Origin: Dehalococcoidia bacterium
GTDB taxonomy: Bacteria; Chloroflexota; Dehalococcoidia; SpSt-223
DNA length: 64,000 nucleotides
NCBI GenBank assembly: GCA_025054935.1
Contig: JANWZD010000009.1
Span: forward strand, 62,001 to 126,000
Reading direction: 5' to 3'
Shown here: positions 51,105 through 57,408 of the stretch, in pieces
Numbering within the stretch: position 1 is the stretch's first letter
How the letters are laid out: every line of letters starts with the position of its first letter
Notes under the pieces: generated by a model
The model's database searches: none
What the model saw: the letters and a program-made list of their open reading frames with translations, nothing else
What the model was told of the DNA's origin: nothing
Translations under genes and position numbers: made by a program

Positions 51105-51259
51105 CGGCCGGCTGGTTTCTGGAGCGCTGCTTGAAGCAGCCGCACCAGCTCCTCTTGGTCGGAGCGCGGCAGGTCGGTCACCCGGCGGACGCCGGCGGCC
51201 TCCATCCGCTCTTGGATGAGGCGGATGATCTCCTCGATCTGGTCGCGCCGCCCGTTCAT
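51101..51259 (-). CDS. 52-residue helical protein coupled to gatC
   Basis: A very small gene with ATGA overlaps on both sides: its ATG lies in the gatC stop and its TGA in the start of the 129-residue gene. The product begins MNGRRDQIEEIIRLIQERME and continues with a second amphipathic helix (SDQEELVRLLQAALQK) after a short VRRVTDLPR link. It looks like a helical hairpin, perhaps a subunit or chaperone for its neighbour. I recognise no family. Double coupling is the main evidence that it is real. Confidence 0.65.
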   Translation of the reverse strand: MNGRRDQIEEIIRLIQERMEAAGVRRVTDLPRSDQEELVRLLQAALQKPAGR

Positions 51260-51546
51260 TCCTCGAGCACGGCCCGAACGCGGAAGTAGTCGCCCTCGCG
51301 CAGCGGCGCGTTCTGCAGCACCTCCTCGACCGGGAAAGACGGCCGCGGCTCGTCCTCGCGGAAGACGTTCGTGGCCGCGAACACTTGGAAGGTCGGCGGC
51401 ACGTCATCGGTGTCGAGGCGGCGCAGCATTTCGAAATGCTCGAGGATGAGGCTGAGCTGGCGCTGCATCCGTTCGACCTCCTCATCGCTGAGGCCGAGGC
51501 GCGCCAGCCGCGCCACATGGAGGACGTCGTCGCGCGTCAGGCTCAT
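51256..51546 (-). CDS. gatC: Aspartyl/glutamyl-tRNA amidotransferase subunit C
   Basis: A 96-residue protein that wraps around GatA and GatB. Signatures: MSLTRDDVLHVARLARLGLS, EEVERMQRQLSLILEHFEML, and the later PSFPVEEVLQNAP, where the usual LR-x-D-x-x residues follow. The start at 51546 is favoured because a TATACT -10 box lies just upstream; the earlier in-frame codons to 51597 would lie upstream of the transcription start. First gene of the gat operon. Confidence 0.93.
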   Translation of the reverse strand: MSLTRDDVLHVARLARLGLSDEEVERMQRQLSLILEHFEMLRRLDTDDVPPTFQVFAATNVFREDEPRPSFPVEEVLQNAPLREGDYFRVRAVLEE

Positions 51547-51552
51547 GCCAGA

Positions 51553-51558
51553 AGTATA
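51553..51558 (-). promoter_or_regulatory. -10 element of the gat operon (leaderless)
   Basis: On the minus strand TATACT ends six bases before the gatC ATG, so the mRNA would begin at or within a base or two of the start codon. There is no ribosome site in between. No -35 is convincing. Confidence 0.4.
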
Positions 51559-51671
51559 CCCCGCTCTCGGCTGGAGGGAGGGCGGCTTGCTGCTCACGGG
51601 GGAAGGAGCGCCTTAAGGTCTCCCGTGGCAGGCTTCTAAGATGCTTGGTTCGCTGCTAGGTGTTGACCTTC

Positions 51672-51718
51672 ATGTCTAACTTATGACATTCTTGGAATAA
51701 CTTCTCGAATAACTTCTC
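51672..51718 (+). repeat. Inverted repeat and perfect 12-bp tandem repeat upstream of the Hsp70 gene
   Basis: ATGTC/GACAT (51672-51676 and 51685-51689) form a short inverted repeat around TAACTTAT. Directly after, GAATAACTTCTC occurs twice in tandem without mismatch (51695-51706 and 51707-51718), ending 12 bp before the ATG. A TTGACC hexamer lies at 51663. The layout resembles a regulated promoter or leader. No usual ribosome site precedes the ATG. Confidence 0.6.
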
Positions 51719-51730
51719 TTGGTTCAATAA

Positions 51731-54142
51731 ATGGACAAGACCGCCATCCCGATGAAGTTCATACAACCGACGAGCATTCCTGAGAACATTCGTTCGCCTA
51801 TTCGTGTCGTTGGTATTGACTTAGGAACGACGAACTCGACGGTTGCGGAAATCATCTGGAGACCCGGCCAAGCCGAGCCGCCTATTGCGCGCTGCCTCGA
51901 AGTCGAGCAGCCGACCGATACTGGTCCCTACACTCACGTGCTTGTCCCCTCAGTAGTGGCAATCCGCGGGTCGCAGACATGGGTTGGAGAAGGTGCGAAA
52001 AGACTGCGAGCAGATCCGAAACTTCGTAGGAATAAAGATATCTTCTATGAAACTAAGAATGATATCGGTTCGCGACGTACCTATCATCTGGCGCCCGAAG
52101 GTTTCCAAAGCGCTGCACAAATTGGAGCGAAGATCCTCGCTTTTCTAAAGACCGAAGTCGAGGCAGCGGATGCGCTGCCAATAGCTCGAACGGTGATAAC
52201 GGTACCAGCATCGTTCCAGCTATCCCAACGAAATGACACATTGCTTGCTGCTAAACTTGCAGGATTAACCTTGCAACCGGGGGATCTTCTGGACGAGCCA
52301 GTAGCTGCCTTTCTCGACTATTTGATGTCGAACCACGATTCTTTGTTGCCAGAATTGGACCAGCCTAAAAACCTCTTAGTATTTGATTTTGGTGGAGGAA
52401 CATGTGATGTTGCGATTTTTCGAGTCAGATTCTTTGAAGGTCACCTTGAAGTTGCTCCTATTTCCGTTTCTCGCTACCATCGCTTAGGAGGAGGGGATAT
52501 CGACTCCGTTATTGTCCATGAAGAGCTGATACCGCAGCTTTTGGAGCAAAATAATATCGATCCGAAAAAGATCGAATTTGACGAAAGAAAGCGACATCTT
52601 GAACCTGCCTTGCTAAGTATTGCAGAGGCCTTAAAAATAGGTCTTTGTACCGAATTATTGCGCCTAGAACAATTTAATCGCCATCCGAGTTCTGATAAGG
52701 ACTTAATAGTTAAGACCCTTTCTGGAGCGTGGCCTTGTCCGTGTCCCGGCTATCCCTCGCTAAAAATTCATTCGCCGCAATTGTCCGCTAAGCGATTCGC
52801 CGAGCTACTAAAGCCGTTTCTCGACAGAGATCTTCTCTATACTCGCGAAACAGAGTATTACTTGACGTGTTCGATCTTTGCGCCGTTGCAAGATGCTCTT
52901 GATAGGGCTGAGATTAATCGTGAACAAATCTCGCTCTGTCTAATGGTGGGTGGGAGTAGTCTGATTCCTCAAGTTGTAGAGTCGATCAAAATGTTTTTGC
53001 CTAGGGCGAGAATCCTCACTTATGCCGATCAATTGTCTGCTCAAGTGGCAGTTGCGCGTGGAGCTGCATATCATGCGCTATCTGTTGCTCTCTTTGGGCG
53101 TGGTCTTGTGCTTCCAGTTGCATCTGACACCGTTTCGATTCGAGTTGCATCTGGCTTGCTCGAACTAGTACCTAGAGGTGCTTTATTGCCGTTTCCGGGC
53201 CCAAACCAGTTCTCCGAACGACTGGAACTTGTTGTGCCAGCTTCTTCGGTTATTGACTCGGTTCCGCTTCGCGTTGAGCTAGTTTCTGGCGAGGATCAGC
53301 GTCCGCTATTTACTGCGATATGGGACATAAGTGGTCCAGTTAATCGAGGTGATCCTTTGAGTCTCAAATTTCAAATGGATACGAATCAGTGTTTGAGACT
53401 TGAGCTTTCTCTGCGAGACCAGCCGAATAAGTCACCTTTTCTCTGTCAAATCGAAAATCCGTTGACTTTAGTTGCAGATCGGAATGAAATTCGCGAACGG
53501 ATAGAAGAGCGCGAAGAACTGCTTCGTGTAGGGAAAGTACCCCGCAATGAAATTCCAGATAATCTAGTTGATTTGTCTGAAGATTATTTTGAACTTGGTC
53601 ATATCGATAAATCTATCGATTATCTCAAGCAGGCTCTCAGGATTAAGGGGCGCCCGGACGCAGCGATTCTGAATCTCTTGGGAATACGCTACGGGTATAA
53701 GCGGGATTGGGAGCAAGAGGAGAGAATGTATCGGGAAGCTTCTCAGGCGTCGCCATCCTGGGCTACGCCCTTGTTCAACTTGGCTCTCTCGCAGTTCCAT
53801 CGCGCTAACATCGATGCTGCTGAAAAAACTATTTGCGAAGCACTTACGATAGAACAGGATCCTCCTTATTTGGTTCTGTATGCGCTAATCTTGAGAAAGC
53901 AAGGTAAAATTGATGAAGCCGAGAGTATAATTAAAGAGGCCATTGTTCAGTTTGGCCCGATTCGTGCTCTAAGTGACTGGGAACTAGACTGGCTCCTGAC
54001 AGCGGCGAAGACAGTATCTAACCAAGCGCTTCTTGATTCAATATCTGAAGAAAAGCGGAGAAGAAGGCGAGTTGGAGATCTCCAAGGCGCAGAACAAGGC
54101 GGTCTTCTTCCTGAGATTGCGCCAAAACTTCAAAGATTATGA
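51731..54142 (+). CDS. Hsp70-family ATPase with C-terminal TPR repeats
   Basis: An 803-residue protein in AT-rich DNA unlike its neighbours. Residues ~25-430 are an Hsp70/actin-type ATPase: GIDLGTTNSTVAE (phosphate 1), VPASFQLSQRNDT, FDFGGGTCDVAIF (~218, phosphate 2), RLGGGDIDSVI and MVGGSSLIPQV (~405, adenosine loop). Residues ~450-600 look like a beta-rich stretch in the place of the substrate domain. Residues ~610-760 are about four TPR units (ALRIKGRPDAAILNLLG, YREASQASPSWATPLFNLAL). It lacks a DnaK-type helical lid. It is likely to be a specialised chaperone or scaffold. The ATG at 51731 is used; 51752 is an alternative. Overlaps the helicase gene by ATGA. Confidence 0.88.
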   Translation: MDKTAIPMKFIQPTSIPENIRSPIRVVGIDLGTTNSTVAEIIWRPGQAEPPIARCLEVEQPTDTGPYTHVLVPSVVAIRGSQTWVGEGAKRLRADPKLRRNKDIFYETKNDIGSRRTYHLAPEGFQSAAQIGAKILAFLKTEVEAADALPIARTVITVPASFQLSQRNDTLLAAKLAGLTLQPGDLLDEPVAAFLDYLMSNHDSLLPELDQPKNLLVFDFGGGTCDVAIFRVRFFEGHLEVAPISVSRYHRLGGGDIDSVIVHEELIPQLLEQNNIDPKKIEFDERKRHLEPALLSIAEALKIGLCTELLRLEQFNRHPSSDKDLIVKTLSGAWPCPCPGYPSLKIHSPQLSAKRFAELLKPFLDRDLLYTRETEYYLTCSIFAPLQDALDRAEINREQISLCLMVGGSSLIPQVVESIKMFLPRARILTYADQLSAQVAVARGAAYHALSVALFGRGLVLPVASDTVSIRVASGLLELVPRGALLPFPGPNQFSERLELVVPASSVIDSVPLRVELVSGEDQRPLFTAIWDISGPVNRGDPLSLKFQMDTNQCLRLELSLRDQPNKSPFLCQIENPLTLVADRNEIRERIEEREELLRVGKVPRNEIPDNLVDLSEDYFELGHIDKSIDYLKQALRIKGRPDAAILNLLGIRYGYKRDWEQEERMYREASQASPSWATPLFNLALSQFHRANIDAAEKTICEALTIEQDPPYLVLYALILRKQGKIDEAESIIKEAIVQFGPIRALSDWELDWLLTAAKTVSNQALLDSISEEKRRRRRVGDLQGAEQGGLLPEIAPKLQRL

Positions 54143-55350
54143 CTATTTGGTTACTGTCTCGTCGTGAACTCACTCCAGAGCAAATACGTGCCATCGAGCT
54201 GCCACATGACCGGCACCAGGTCATTTTTGGGGCTCCCGGTTCTGGGAAGACTCAAATTTTGCTTCATCGTGCCGCAGAGCTGAAGAAAAGGATCGGCTCT
54301 TCGCCTGATCGGTTTCTCATTCTAGTTTATACCAATGTCTTGAAGTCTTATATCCGTTCGGCGCTTGATCTGCTCGGTCTGCCGGAAAACGCAGTAACTA
54401 CGTTCGACGATTGGTGTAAGACGTTTTACGAGCAATATATTAGCCGACGAGTACCTTGGAATACCTCTGCCGGTCGACCTGACTTTGATGCCATCCGTCG
54501 CTCTGTCTCGCAGGCGATTAGTTCAAATTTCGTCCCTCTTCCCCTGTATGACTTCATATTGGTAGACGAAGGTCAAGATCTTGACCCGTTGTGTTTTGAT
54601 ATAATACGACGGATCGCGCGTCATGTGACAGTATGTCTTGACCAGAAGCAGCAGATTTATGAACATGGTAGCACAGAAGCCGAAATTCTCTCTATACTTG
54701 GCTTGCGTCGGAAAAATGTCTCTCTTCTCGATGCTTATCGTTGTTCGCCATATGTTGCGCGTTTAGCTGCTCAATTTCTTAGCGATCCAAGCGAGCGTCA
54801 ATATTACCTCCGGCAGCTTCGCACGGAACAAATTGGTCGTGAGCCTCCACTTCTTTATGTTGCGGCAAGTTTCCAAACCGAAAAGCAACGTCTTATAGAA
54901 GTAATGCGTCAGCGGCTGCTTGCTAATCAGCAAATAGGGGTACTATTCCACCTAAAAAGACAGGTTTTTGGATTTGCGCAGGCTTTGCAGTCGAATGGCA
55001 TCGATGTTGAAGTTGCTCCTAATCTTGACTTTGCTTCAAATAAACCAAAGATCACAACCATCCATAGTGCTAAGGGCCTTACTTTCGACTCGGTTTTCCT
55101 TCCTCGCTTAGTTGTTGCCTCTTTTCCTCGGGCAACGGTTGAGAGAATTCGCAACTTGCTTTTTGTCGCGGTGACTCGGGCAAGGAGCTGGGTTTATCTT
55201 AGTACCACTCGGAATGACATGCTCCCGATCCTCGAGTTTCTGAAGACGTTGGTTGCAGAGGGGGCAATCGTAGTGCAGGAGGGAGAAGAGTCGTATCAGA
55301 GCGAACCGCCTCTAGTTTCGACCCCGTCGAGCGACCTAGACTTTCTCTAG
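54139..55350 (+). CDS. Short superfamily-1 (UvrD/Rep-like) helicase-type ATPase
   Basis: A 403-residue ATPase with SF1 motifs: Q-motif-like LTPEQIRAIELP, Walker A GAPGSGKTQILLH (~31-38), LVYTNVLKSYIR, motif II ILVDEGQDLDP (~141-149), motif III LDQKQQIYE, motif IV DAYRCSPYVARLA, motif V TIHSAKGLTFDSVFL (~305) and motif VI LLFVAVTRARSWVYL (~342). It is much shorter than UvrD (~700 residues), without room for full 1B/2B domains or a nuclease, so it may be a minimal translocase or a regulatory NTPase. Composition and codon use match the Hsp70-TPR gene, which it overlaps by ATGA, so the two form one unit. Confidence 0.85.
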   Translation: MTIWLLSRRELTPEQIRAIELPHDRHQVIFGAPGSGKTQILLHRAAELKKRIGSSPDRFLILVYTNVLKSYIRSALDLLGLPENAVTTFDDWCKTFYEQYISRRVPWNTSAGRPDFDAIRRSVSQAISSNFVPLPLYDFILVDEGQDLDPLCFDIIRRIARHVTVCLDQKQQIYEHGSTEAEILSILGLRRKNVSLLDAYRCSPYVARLAAQFLSDPSERQYYLRQLRTEQIGREPPLLYVAASFQTEKQRLIEVMRQRLLANQQIGVLFHLKRQVFGFAQALQSNGIDVEVAPNLDFASNKPKITTIHSAKGLTFDSVFLPRLVVASFPRATVERIRNLLFVAVTRARSWVYLSTTRNDMLPILEFLKTLVAEGAIVVQEGEESYQSEPPLVSTPSSDLDFL

Positions 55351-55363
55351 ACAAGAATGTATC

Positions 55364-55384
55364 TCGATATCCCTTATCGATTTG
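55364..55384 (+). terminator. Weak hairpin after the helicase gene
   Basis: TCGATA and TATCGA form a six-pair stem with a five-base loop, 13 bp after the helicase stop and followed by only TTTGG. It may end transcription of the island weakly. The rest of the gap to 55450 shows nothing else of note. Confidence 0.3.
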
Positions 55385-55450
55385 GTATGTAGTCTGCTCT
55401 CGATTGATGCCTTAATTGCGCTCTAGTCCTAGGCGCCCTGACGAAGGAGG

Positions 55451-56587
55451 TCAGCCGAGCGCAGCGCGGACCGCGACCTTGGCGAGCGTTTTCGGGTCCA
55501 TCAGCATCGTGGTGTAGAAGGCGTTCGCCATAGGGCAGGCGCACTCCCCGGCGGCGATGCTCGCGCGCATCTTGTCGGCGAGATAGCCGCGCCAGACCCG
55601 GCCGAAGTCATAGTCCACCGCCCGCACATTGCCGATCGGCTCGGCGCGCACGCAGCACGCCCAGACATCCCCATCCGGCGCAACATGCCCGCTCGCCACT
55701 CCCGCATAGCAGGGCAGCGCCTGCTTCCCCTCGCGCAGCGCCTTCGCCGCAAGCTGGTAATACTCGGCGCGGAACGCCGCCGTTATCCGCGCAAACCCGC
55801 GCGCCTTTCGCCGCGCCGCCTTGCGCGACAGTTCGGCGGCAACGCGGCCATACGTCTCCGGGTCGGGCGTGATGCCGCTGTTGCGGTTGCCCATCTCCAG
55901 CCGCTCTTCTGCCACCTCAGTAATGACGCTGTCCGGCTCCAGCGACTCCAGATGGTCGACGATCGCGAGCGCGCGGTCGACGTTCAGGCTCGAAATAACG
56001 GCGTGGAGGCCGATGACGAGATTGTCCGGCTTGTTCTCCTTCAGCCGTTCGAACGTCTTCAGCGCCAGTTCGTAGTTGCGCGGCACGCCGCGGATCCGGT
56101 CGTGCTCCTCCCCGATGCCGTCGAGCGAAATGTTCAGGATCACCTCGGTATCGCGGCAGGCGCGGGCAATGGCGTGGACCCGCCCCGGCGTCGTCTTCCA
56201 GTACATCCCGCTCGTCGGGATCGTGATCACCTTCGGCCGGCAGCGCTCCCACGCCGCGACCACGATCTCTTCGAGATCCTCGCGCAGGAACGGCTCGCCG
56301 CCGGTGAAAGTGAGGTAGAACGGCGCTCGACCGAGGCTGTCGAAGACACGCTTGAACTCGTCGAGCGTCAGTTCCGGCCGCGTCTCGAGCTGCGAGGCAT
56401 CGTACGGCCACTCTTGGCCCGGCGGCGGCGCGTACGCCTTCTTGGTGTACATCCAAATGTTGCAGCTCTGGCAGCGCGAGTTGCAGCGGTACGTGACGGC
56501 GAAGACAAGATTGAGCGGCAGGAGTTTCGGCCCAATGCCGCGCCGCATCGCCATATACCGCGGGATCTGCGGCAGGATCTCCAGCAT
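55451..56587 (-). CDS. Radical SAM protein with SPASM-like C terminus
   Basis: A 378-residue radical SAM enzyme. The cluster motif is YRCNSRCQSCNIW near residue 36 (CxxxCxxC), followed by FYLTFTGGEPFLREDLEE, TIPTSGMYW and ILNISLDGIGEEHDRIRG, the usual SAM-binding strands. The C-terminal part has CYAGVASGHVAPDGDVWACC and a late CACPM, suggesting an auxiliary iron-sulfur site. The substrate is unknown. It follows two methyltransferase genes in the same operon, which suggests a small-molecule, lipid or peptide modification pathway. The ATG at 56587 is two bases after the upstream stop. Confidence 0.88.
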   Translation of the reverse strand: MLEILPQIPRYMAMRRGIGPKLLPLNLVFAVTYRCNSRCQSCNIWMYTKKAYAPPPGQEWPYDASQLETRPELTLDEFKRVFDSLGRAPFYLTFTGGEPFLREDLEEIVVAAWERCRPKVITIPTSGMYWKTTPGRVHAIARACRDTEVILNISLDGIGEEHDRIRGVPRNYELALKTFERLKENKPDNLVIGLHAVISSLNVDRALAIVDHLESLEPDSVITEVAEERLEMGNRNSGITPDPETYGRVAAELSRKAARRKARGFARITAAFRAEYYQLAAKALREGKQALPCYAGVASGHVAPDGDVWACCVRAEPIGNVRAVDYDFGRVWRGYLADKMRASIAAGECACPMANAFYTTMLMDPKTLAKVAVRAALG

Positions 56588-56589
56588 CG

Positions 56590-57408
56590 TCAGTCCTCCC
56601 GCCGAGCGAGCACGTAGTGATGATGCGCCCAGACGGTCTTCAGCTGCCACGGCAGCGGCGCGCGGTCGAGCAGTGCCAGCTTGTCGACCGTCGCCCGCAC
56701 GCCCGGCGCGAGACCGGCGTAGTAGTCGAGCGTCGACCACGTCCAGCCGTCGCCCTCGAAGCGCGACCGGATCGGCAGCGCTCCCAGCCCGACCCGGCGC
56801 AGAAACTCGCTCGCCGGCATGCAGGTGTCCGGCCACGGCGGCACGTCGAGCACGCCTTCTTCGACAATCCGGCAGCCCGCCTCGCGCAGCGTCCGCTTGA
56901 TCCGCCTCACCGACACCCACCGCTCATCGACCTTCGCGAAGAACTCCTTGTCGATCGCGTACTTGCGGAGAAGATAGCCCAGCTGCGCCTGGTTCGGCAT
57001 TGCGATGAAGACGAGGTCTCGGCTGACGCGAACCAGCTCGCGGATGAGCGCGCCCGCCCCGCCTCGCACGTGCCAGAGCGCGGCGAAGTTCCAGACGAAG
57101 TCGAAGCGGCGGTCGGCGAAGGGGAGACGGCGCGGGTCGCTGCAAAAGACGAGGTCGACCGGCAGCCCGAGGCTGTCCCAGTGGGTTCGGATTTCGGCGA
57201 GCCGGTCGCGGTCAACATCGAGGAGGGTGACGCGCTTGCCCAGCTGCGCTAGCCGAACGCTGTTGATGCCGTCGACACCGGCCATGCCGTAGACCGGTGC
57301 TTCCAGCACCGTCGCGAACGGGAAGCGGCGGTCGATCCGCTCGAGGAGATCGTTCAGGATCAGCCGCTCATAGACGACGCCGAGCCCTTCCGCGGTCGTG
57401 GCGCTCAC
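56590..57408 (-). CDS. SAM-dependent methyltransferase-like protein
   Basis: A 272-residue protein with a class I methyltransferase core: VLEAPVYGMAGVDGINSVRL in the place of motif I, VTLLDVDRDRLAEIRTHW, then FDFVWNFAALWHVRGGAGAL and LVRVSRDLVFIAMPN. Motif I is atypical (E-A-P-V-Y-G-M-A-G instead of D-x-G-x-G-x-G). The GTG start overlaps the stop of the upstream methyltransferase gene (GTGA). The substrate is unknown. Confidence 0.75.
   Translation of the reverse strand: MSATTAEGLGVVYERLILNDLLERIDRRFPFATVLEAPVYGMAGVDGINSVRLAQLGKRVTLLDVDRDRLAEIRTHWDSLGLPVDLVFCSDPRRLPFADRRFDFVWNFAALWHVRGGAGALIRELVRVSRDLVFIAMPNQAQLGYLLRKYAIDKEFFAKVDERWVSVRRIKRTLREAGCRIVEEGVLDVPPWPDTCMPASEFLRRVGLGALPIRSRFEGDGWTWSTLDYYAGLAPGVRATVDKLALLDRAPLPWQLKTVWAHHHYVLARRED

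Follow-up and report, generated by a model that had tools for sequence, protein, structure and literature searches.

What kind of system is encoded by two overlapping genes, one for an Hsp70-type ATPase joined to tetratricopeptide repeats (TPR) and the other for a minimal UvrD-type helicase of superfamily 1 (SF1), which lie together on an AT-rich island in a Dehalococcoidia bacterium? The island was analyzed in a 64,000-nucleotide stretch of contig JANWZD010000009.1; this whole stretch is called the window here, and island coordinates are given in window positions. Our answer is that the pair is a horizontally acquired accessory module of two proteins, which most likely defends against phages or other mobile DNA. 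The defence reading is strengthened by the defence-enriched neighbours of related pairs and by copies on plasmids, and a housekeeping role is disfavoured because the pair is absent from two congeners, occurs in 1 of 301 genomes of the phylum and has a tree in which phyla are mixed.

The island and its acquisition

A first-pass annotation of this DNA had described two genes overlapping by ATGA, more AT-rich than the other genes, on apparently transferred DNA between gatC and a radical SAM gene on the opposite strand, and all of these points hold. The features are as follows.

51256-51597, minus strand: gatC, left flank of the island
51640..51730, no strand: AT-rich left edge of the island
51731..54142, plus strand: Hsp70-TPR gene, 803 amino acids (open reading frame (ORF), Pfam, AlphaFold2 (AF2) model)
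54139..54142, plus strand: ATGA overlap of the Hsp70-TPR and helicase genes
54139..55350, plus strand: minimal UvrD-type SF1 motor gene, 403 amino acids
55351..55430, no strand: AT-rich right edge, with no room for a third gene before the radical SAM gene
55451-56920, minus strand: radical SAM gene, right flank of the island

The two ORFs occupy window positions 51731-55350 on the plus strand, and the whole island measures about 3.7 kb. Both genes have a GC content of 0.48 and a third-position GC content (GC3) of 0.42-0.45, against a GC3 of 0.83-0.91 in gatA, gatC, lrp and the radical SAM gene. Measured over 1 kb, GC is 46-48% within the island and 64-73% in the rest of the window, where a comparable drop occurs nowhere else.

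The Hsp70 of the pair is absent from both congeneric genomes checked (G301 and G302), and of the 301 Chloroflexota genomes sampled none but the window's own gave a match at E <= 1e-40. gatC and the radical SAM gene stand more than 280 kb apart in G302, and in G301 the gap between them is only about 1 kb and holds a different, oxidoreductase-like ORF. Because this other gene (FAD-oxidoreductase-like, L137:3321-4265) fills the gap, the site itself is variable. Neither an integrase nor a terminal repeat or att site was found at the island, the best end-to-end match being a 9-bp inverted repeat, and an integrative element with att sites was rejected since no flanking repeat was found there.

The draft assembly consists of 93 contigs with an estimated contamination of 3.9%, which leaves some room for foreign DNA joined into the contig by mistake; we give this explanation the least credence of all, as the island has host sequence on both sides within one contig, both junctions are clean and fall in intergenic DNA, and the intact gene pair is known elsewhere.

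Distribution of the pair in other genomes

Relatives were gathered by scanning a single genome of each species with patterns made from the Hsp70 alone, which gave 80 loci in more than 15 phyla. Pairing was counted in the 70 loci having at least 900 bases downstream, including the window, two plasmid pair loci and an outgroup plasmid (L005). The mini-helicase stands immediately next to the Hsp70 in 64 of these 70 loci, or in 65 when L117, detected by tblastn, is added, so the coupling noticed in the window recurs in other genomes. In L072, L073, L083, L097 and the outgroup no mini-helicase stands directly behind the Hsp70.

Two clades were distinguished. Clade A contains the window-like loci, spans many phyla and is a two-gene unit, in which the 4-bp overlap is the commonest spacing (15 of 29 pairs). 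Clade B is mostly from Bacteroidota and has a third gene added. In 30 loci this gene belongs to one recurrent family, in two loci to another; its proteins are mostly helical-looking with a variable low-complexity tail, and no convincing match to them was found in Pfam, NCBIfam, PADLOC or PDB. The two types are unrelated (L003:9173-10963, L114:11522-13186 and homologues), and the third gene is a candidate adaptor or effector. Plasmid copies in Persicobacter and Antarctobacter comprise the pair and a third gene.

The two proteins of the pair diverge together. The pairwise divergences of the two are strongly correlated, with a Mantel r of 0.939 in clade A (29 pairs) and 0.975 in clade B (34 pairs) and 0 of 1000 permutations as high in either clade, and their sequence identities fall off at similar rates, the median identity in clade A being 42% for Hsp70 and 41% for the helicase. 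In the Hsp70 tree the phyla are intermixed, the window copy standing beside sequences of Anaerolineales, Methylohalobius and Chthonomonadaceae, and near-identical proteins occur across different phyla (L057/L067 and L058/L060). Since the phylum labels come from metagenome bins, errors of binning may explain individual cases of mixing, which is not likely for the overall pattern. A vertically inherited housekeeping pair was rejected on the absence from congeners, the sparse distribution and this mixing. A scan of viral contigs for the Hsp70 gave one locus, an IMG/VR contig (L132:7482-10361) with a homologue of 959 amino acids, equal in length to the protein of the Antarctobacter plasmid, so phage-like or plasmid-like elements may be further carriers of the pair.

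The Hsp70-TPR protein

The first gene was divided into the following domains.

51800..53095, plus strand: Hsp70 nucleotide-binding domain (NBD), residues 24-455
53132..53455, plus strand: beta-sandwich resembling the beta part of the substrate-binding domain (SBD-beta), residues 468-575
53486..54091, plus strand: helical TPR array, residues 586-787, replacing the SBD-alpha lid of DnaK

The joining of an Hsp70 ATPase to TPR repeats, as first described, is seen again in Pfam (HSP70 at 5.7e-34, together with TPR families). The AF2 model is confident (predicted local distance difference test (pLDDT) 90.6, predicted template modelling score (pTM) 0.86), and its NBD and SBD-beta match the fold of DnaK. 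Residues D30, T33, K90, E189, D219, T224, D226 and GGS 407-409 are conserved within the window's clade, and those that mark the Hsp70 superfamily (D30, K90, E189, T224, D226 and GGS 407-409) are kept there at 94-100%. D30, K90, E189 and T224 are the counterparts of the catalytic D8, K70, E171 and T199 of DnaK; clade A keeps all four and clade B is variable at K90. As judged from alignment and model, the catalytic residues are intact and the TPRs take the place of the lid.

The protein is not a DnaK orthologue, scoring 110.5 bits with the NCBIfam DnaK equivalog against a cut-off of 822.55, and it has zero matches among the PADLOC 2023 models. The linker aspartate of DnaK, which is contacted by J-domains, is of established importance. 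Its position (Asp393 in DnaK) is taken by Pro462, 92% conserved, which makes it doubtful that the protein is coupled to the normal DnaJ cycle; it may work independently of DnaJ. The Hsp70 of the Antarctobacter plasmid (L004:7482-10358) has an N-terminal HEPN_Swt1-like domain (E 0.0015), possibly an RNase fused to the chaperone.

The mini-helicase and its C-terminal tail

The second gene has two parts.

54154..55287, plus strand: RecA-like 1A/2A motor core, residues 6-383, without 1B and 2B
55294..55347, plus strand: helicase tail, of low confidence and probably disordered, with the tip SDLDFL-COOH (residues 398-403)

The description of this product as a UvrD-like ATPase of about 400 residues, with the helicase motifs and no room for accessory domains, agrees with our results. 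Pfam gives UvrD-helicase (2.3e-15) and UvrD_C (1.4e-15), the AF2 model is confident (pLDDT 92.1, pTM 0.88), and 362 residues superpose on UvrD (4c2t, 645 residues) with Z 36.1 at 2.9 A. The SF1A motor motifs are present, the UvrD span beyond the shared core (1B/2B) is missing from the 403 residues, and the motor is reduced to the 1A/2A core. Fifteen positions are invariant in 48 of 48 sequences, including the Walker A and Walker B residues and the motif VI arginine; among them are G31, G34, G36, K37, D143, E144, Q146 and D147, and also D168, Q171, R201, K312 and R347. The protein falls far short of the UvrD/PcrA/Rep equivalog cut-offs, and its top PADLOC models are defence UvrDs, namely C3a187 (1.9e-30) and GajB (7.5e-23). 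When the helicase profile A1 was run against the Chloroflexota genomes and viral contigs, chiefly larger HelD/UvrD-type frames were matched.

In the helicase model the pLDDT is mostly below 50 over the final 18 residues, and the tails of the family differ in length and sequence; an acidic-hydrophobic tip is common to them (DLDFL in the window copy; DILDLL, LTDLF, DDYDMPF and FDF in relatives). The chain ends in F or L in 61 of 63 complete helicases, and in 30 of 32 after reduction to 50% identity, compared with 61 of 499 other genes of the same loci (12%) and 8 of 83 Hsp70s. A hydrophobic last residue with an acid among the three preceding positions is found in 52/63 helicases vs 37/499 other genes, and this contrast between helicases and background is too large for chance. 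Because a stricter motif matched just 43 of 63 helicases (11/499 other genes), the claim is limited to a terminal F or L in an acidic context. Among 12 related UvrD proteins away from this Hsp70, the acidic tip occurs in none and an F or L end in two.

It is established, for EEVD tails, that TPR arrays often bind acidic C-terminal peptides. The conserved tail with its F/L tip therefore suggests docking on the TPR array, and the failure to see this tip in the related UvrDs checked away from the Hsp70 points towards the partner as its receptor. The tip may alternatively mimic the tail of SSB, whose C-terminus is DDDIPF in E. coli, so that the helicase would bind SSB-interacting proteins or compete with SSB at the replication fork and the TPRs would serve elsewhere. 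Several tips are indeed SSB-like (DDYDMPF, DDYDAPF, LEQDAPF, TEFDDIPL), but the majority end in LDFL, ILDLL, LTDLF or FDF rather than PF, and the link of the tip to the Hsp70 also speaks against this explanation, which we regard as rather improbable.

Neighbourhoods and function

In clade A, 88 neighbour genes of 18 loci were compared by PADLOC with 88 genes lying elsewhere in these genomes at a cut-off of 1e-15. The named recurrences are weighted above the tally of this test because families are counted and one protein may match many. An SNF2 helicase of about 1,050-1,160 amino acids (DrmD/HKD-Snf2 type) is among the neighbours in L056, L062, L066, L067, L072, L083, L084 and L088, five of these eight loci having been scanned singly with PADLOC, and the recurring SNF2 neighbours match DrmD and C3a139. 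PADLOC further finds a type IIG-like methyltransferase in L056, L058, L060 and L083, with homologues in further loci. The first-pass annotation had noticed the pair itself but had overlooked these partners, the conserved tail of the helicase and the sister clade's third gene.

Other plasmids carry close relatives of the mini-helicase together with DrmB or with protein kinases. At L006:8001-9086 and L007:5980-7101, which are DISARM/ARMADA-like loci on Streptomyces and Deinococcus plasmids, the mini-UvrD relative comes after DrmB or a DUF1998 protein and a large gene related to helicases. At L008:4589-7149 and L009:4582-7146, on Rhizobium and Cupriavidus plasmids, a mini-UvrD occurs with a protein kinase (PD-T4-6/mad6-like), and these two loci have a third protein of unknown family in common. 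Hsp70 and kinase may be interchangeable partners of mini-UvrD; a third gene shared among the Hsp70-, kinase- and DrmB-linked mini-UvrDs was tested for and not found.

Several points weigh against a defence role and its mechanism. Over about 10 kb around the window copy there is no convincing defence neighbour; the ten flanking proteins scanned with PADLOC gave a sole match, to a generic methyltransferase (mad2). The PADLOC comparison, with 106 families matched among neighbours and 23 among control genes, is a tally of families and not of genes, in which a single SNF2 protein may match as many as ten models. Neither a nuclease nor a toxin nor any other effector is encoded in the two-gene unit. 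The sequences had been inspected before the tail motif was defined, so its counts describe it and do not test a prior hypothesis; binding of tail to TPR is a prediction, and N683 of the TPR array, invariant in 52/52 sequences, is also a frequent TPR consensus residue. Sensing of infection by the Hsp70 is pure inference. The early suggestion of an accessory, possibly anti-phage or stress system stands as to its accessory character, while its defence part is backed by plasmid copies and by the enriched neighbours of relatives and not by those of the window.

The strongest alternative to defence is an accessory module of stress or repair, in which the Hsp70 would load the helicase, or recycle it, on RNA or at stalled forks, with gene transfer simply spreading a niche trait. 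Hsp70 and UvrD/HelD are classical factors of stress, repair and transcription, the window copy is alone among ordinary genes, and SNF2 or methyltransferase partners occur only in a minority of relatives. The very sparse distribution, the plasmid carriage, the defence-enriched neighbours, the best matches to defence helicases and the proline in place of DnaK D393, with its doubtful coupling to the DnaJ cycle, make this explanation unlikely, though it ranks first among the rivals. A self-serving module for maintenance or transfer of a plasmid or integrative element, with no defence role, would suit the plasmid copies, the AT-rich acquired DNA and two phage-integrase genes among the relatives' neighbours; we consider it very improbable, as no att-like repeat was found at the window island and the flanking genes vary from locus to locus while defence genes recur.

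Proposed mechanism and value of the data

If the pair is a defence module, its action may be pictured as follows. The tip on the TPR array would tether the helicase to the chaperone, mirroring the EEVD tails of Hsp70 and Hsp90 on TPR co-chaperones. The Hsp70 would sense an infection cue, for example phage proteins or assemblies offered to its substrate domain, and its ATP cycle would shift the conformation so that the motor is freed or activated. The motor could then translocate along phage nucleic acid, blocking replication or passing the nucleic acid to nucleases, and in loci with the SNF2 helicase and type IIG-like methyltransferase alongside, the pair might feed that restriction machinery. 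A new class of immunity, in which the Hsp70 is sensor and switch of a motor tethered through an EEVD- or SSB-like tip on TPRs and fired by phage proteins, is proposed only tentatively. The pair is to be filed under a known kind, the predicted defence modules combining ATPases and helicases, and there is a real chance that the chaperone-gated mechanism is new.

A role of chaperones in sensing infection indirectly is beginning to emerge, as in bNACHT25 with DnaJ and the Hsp70-like CnuD of CoCoNuTs. A widespread pair of an active-looking Hsp70 and a minimal SF1 motor would offer a simple two-protein test of a chaperone cycle switching a helicase, and the conserved tail yields a direct biochemical prediction. 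Scans with PADLOC, Pfam and NCBIfam models would miss the pair because it is unnamed in them and the Hsp70 has no PADLOC match.

Comparison with known systems

With DnaK/Hsp70 chaperones the Hsp70-TPR protein shares the NBD fold, catalytic residues and SBD-beta sandwich; it differs in lacking the SBD-alpha lid, in its TPR array and in the linker. The mini-helicase shares the 1A/2A motor and SF1A motifs of UvrD/PcrA/Rep, and differs in lacking 1B and 2B and in its conserved flexible C-terminal tip. Gabija also has a UvrD-type motor (GajB) within a two-gene defence unit, but the partner here is Hsp70-TPR and not the OLD/TOPRIM nuclease GajA. The best model for the helicase, C3a187 (NERD+UvrD), aligns with residues 24-359 from profile position 210 of 559, and the NERD nuclease half (the first ~210 profile positions) is absent.

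CnuD of CoCoNuT, a predicted defence system, combines an Hsp70-like unit with HEAT-like helical repeats, works with McrB/McrC-type partners and has a Walker A-like motif reported as degenerate (PMC11090510). The present Hsp70-TPR differs in its conserved catalytic residues and UvrD partner, and neither an McrB-type GTPase with coiled coil nor an McrC homologue was found in the two genes of the island or the ten flanking proteins scanned. DISARM and ARMADA have an SNF2 helicase and a PglX-like methyltransferase, ARMADA also a GajB-like UvrD protein, and Hsp70 is not mentioned in the paper describing them (PMC12458937). Their gene set resembles the neighbours in some relatives of the pair, but the pair is without YprA/DrmA or DrmB, and SNF2 or YprA together with DrmB or a PglX-like methyltransferase was not found near the window pair. 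bNACHT25 is a precedent for a chaperone in phage sensing, using host DnaJ (PMC12169576), but it is an NLR-like protein unrelated to the pair. The earlier remark that no named system has this pair is upheld: no paper describing it was found in the open-access literature searched, and no model of PADLOC 2023, Pfam or NCBIfam names it.

Some further loci were recorded. At L083:6102-15399 the Hsp70-TPR gene is followed by the SNF2 helicase and IIG-like methyltransferase, and the mini-helicase is missing. A longer second UvrD-type helicase (about 612 amino acids) lies directly behind the mini-helicase at L057:8873-10714 and L067:11704-13542. The Hsp70 protein of the Priestia megaterium plasmid (L005:4624-14814) has MBL-fold, HEAT-repeat and DprA-type neighbours and is possibly another Hsp70-based defence locus, and on a Nostoc plasmid (L161:1960-6131) a prokaryotic viperin, a UvrD protein and a longer UvrD-type 3'-5' exonuclease adjoin one another.

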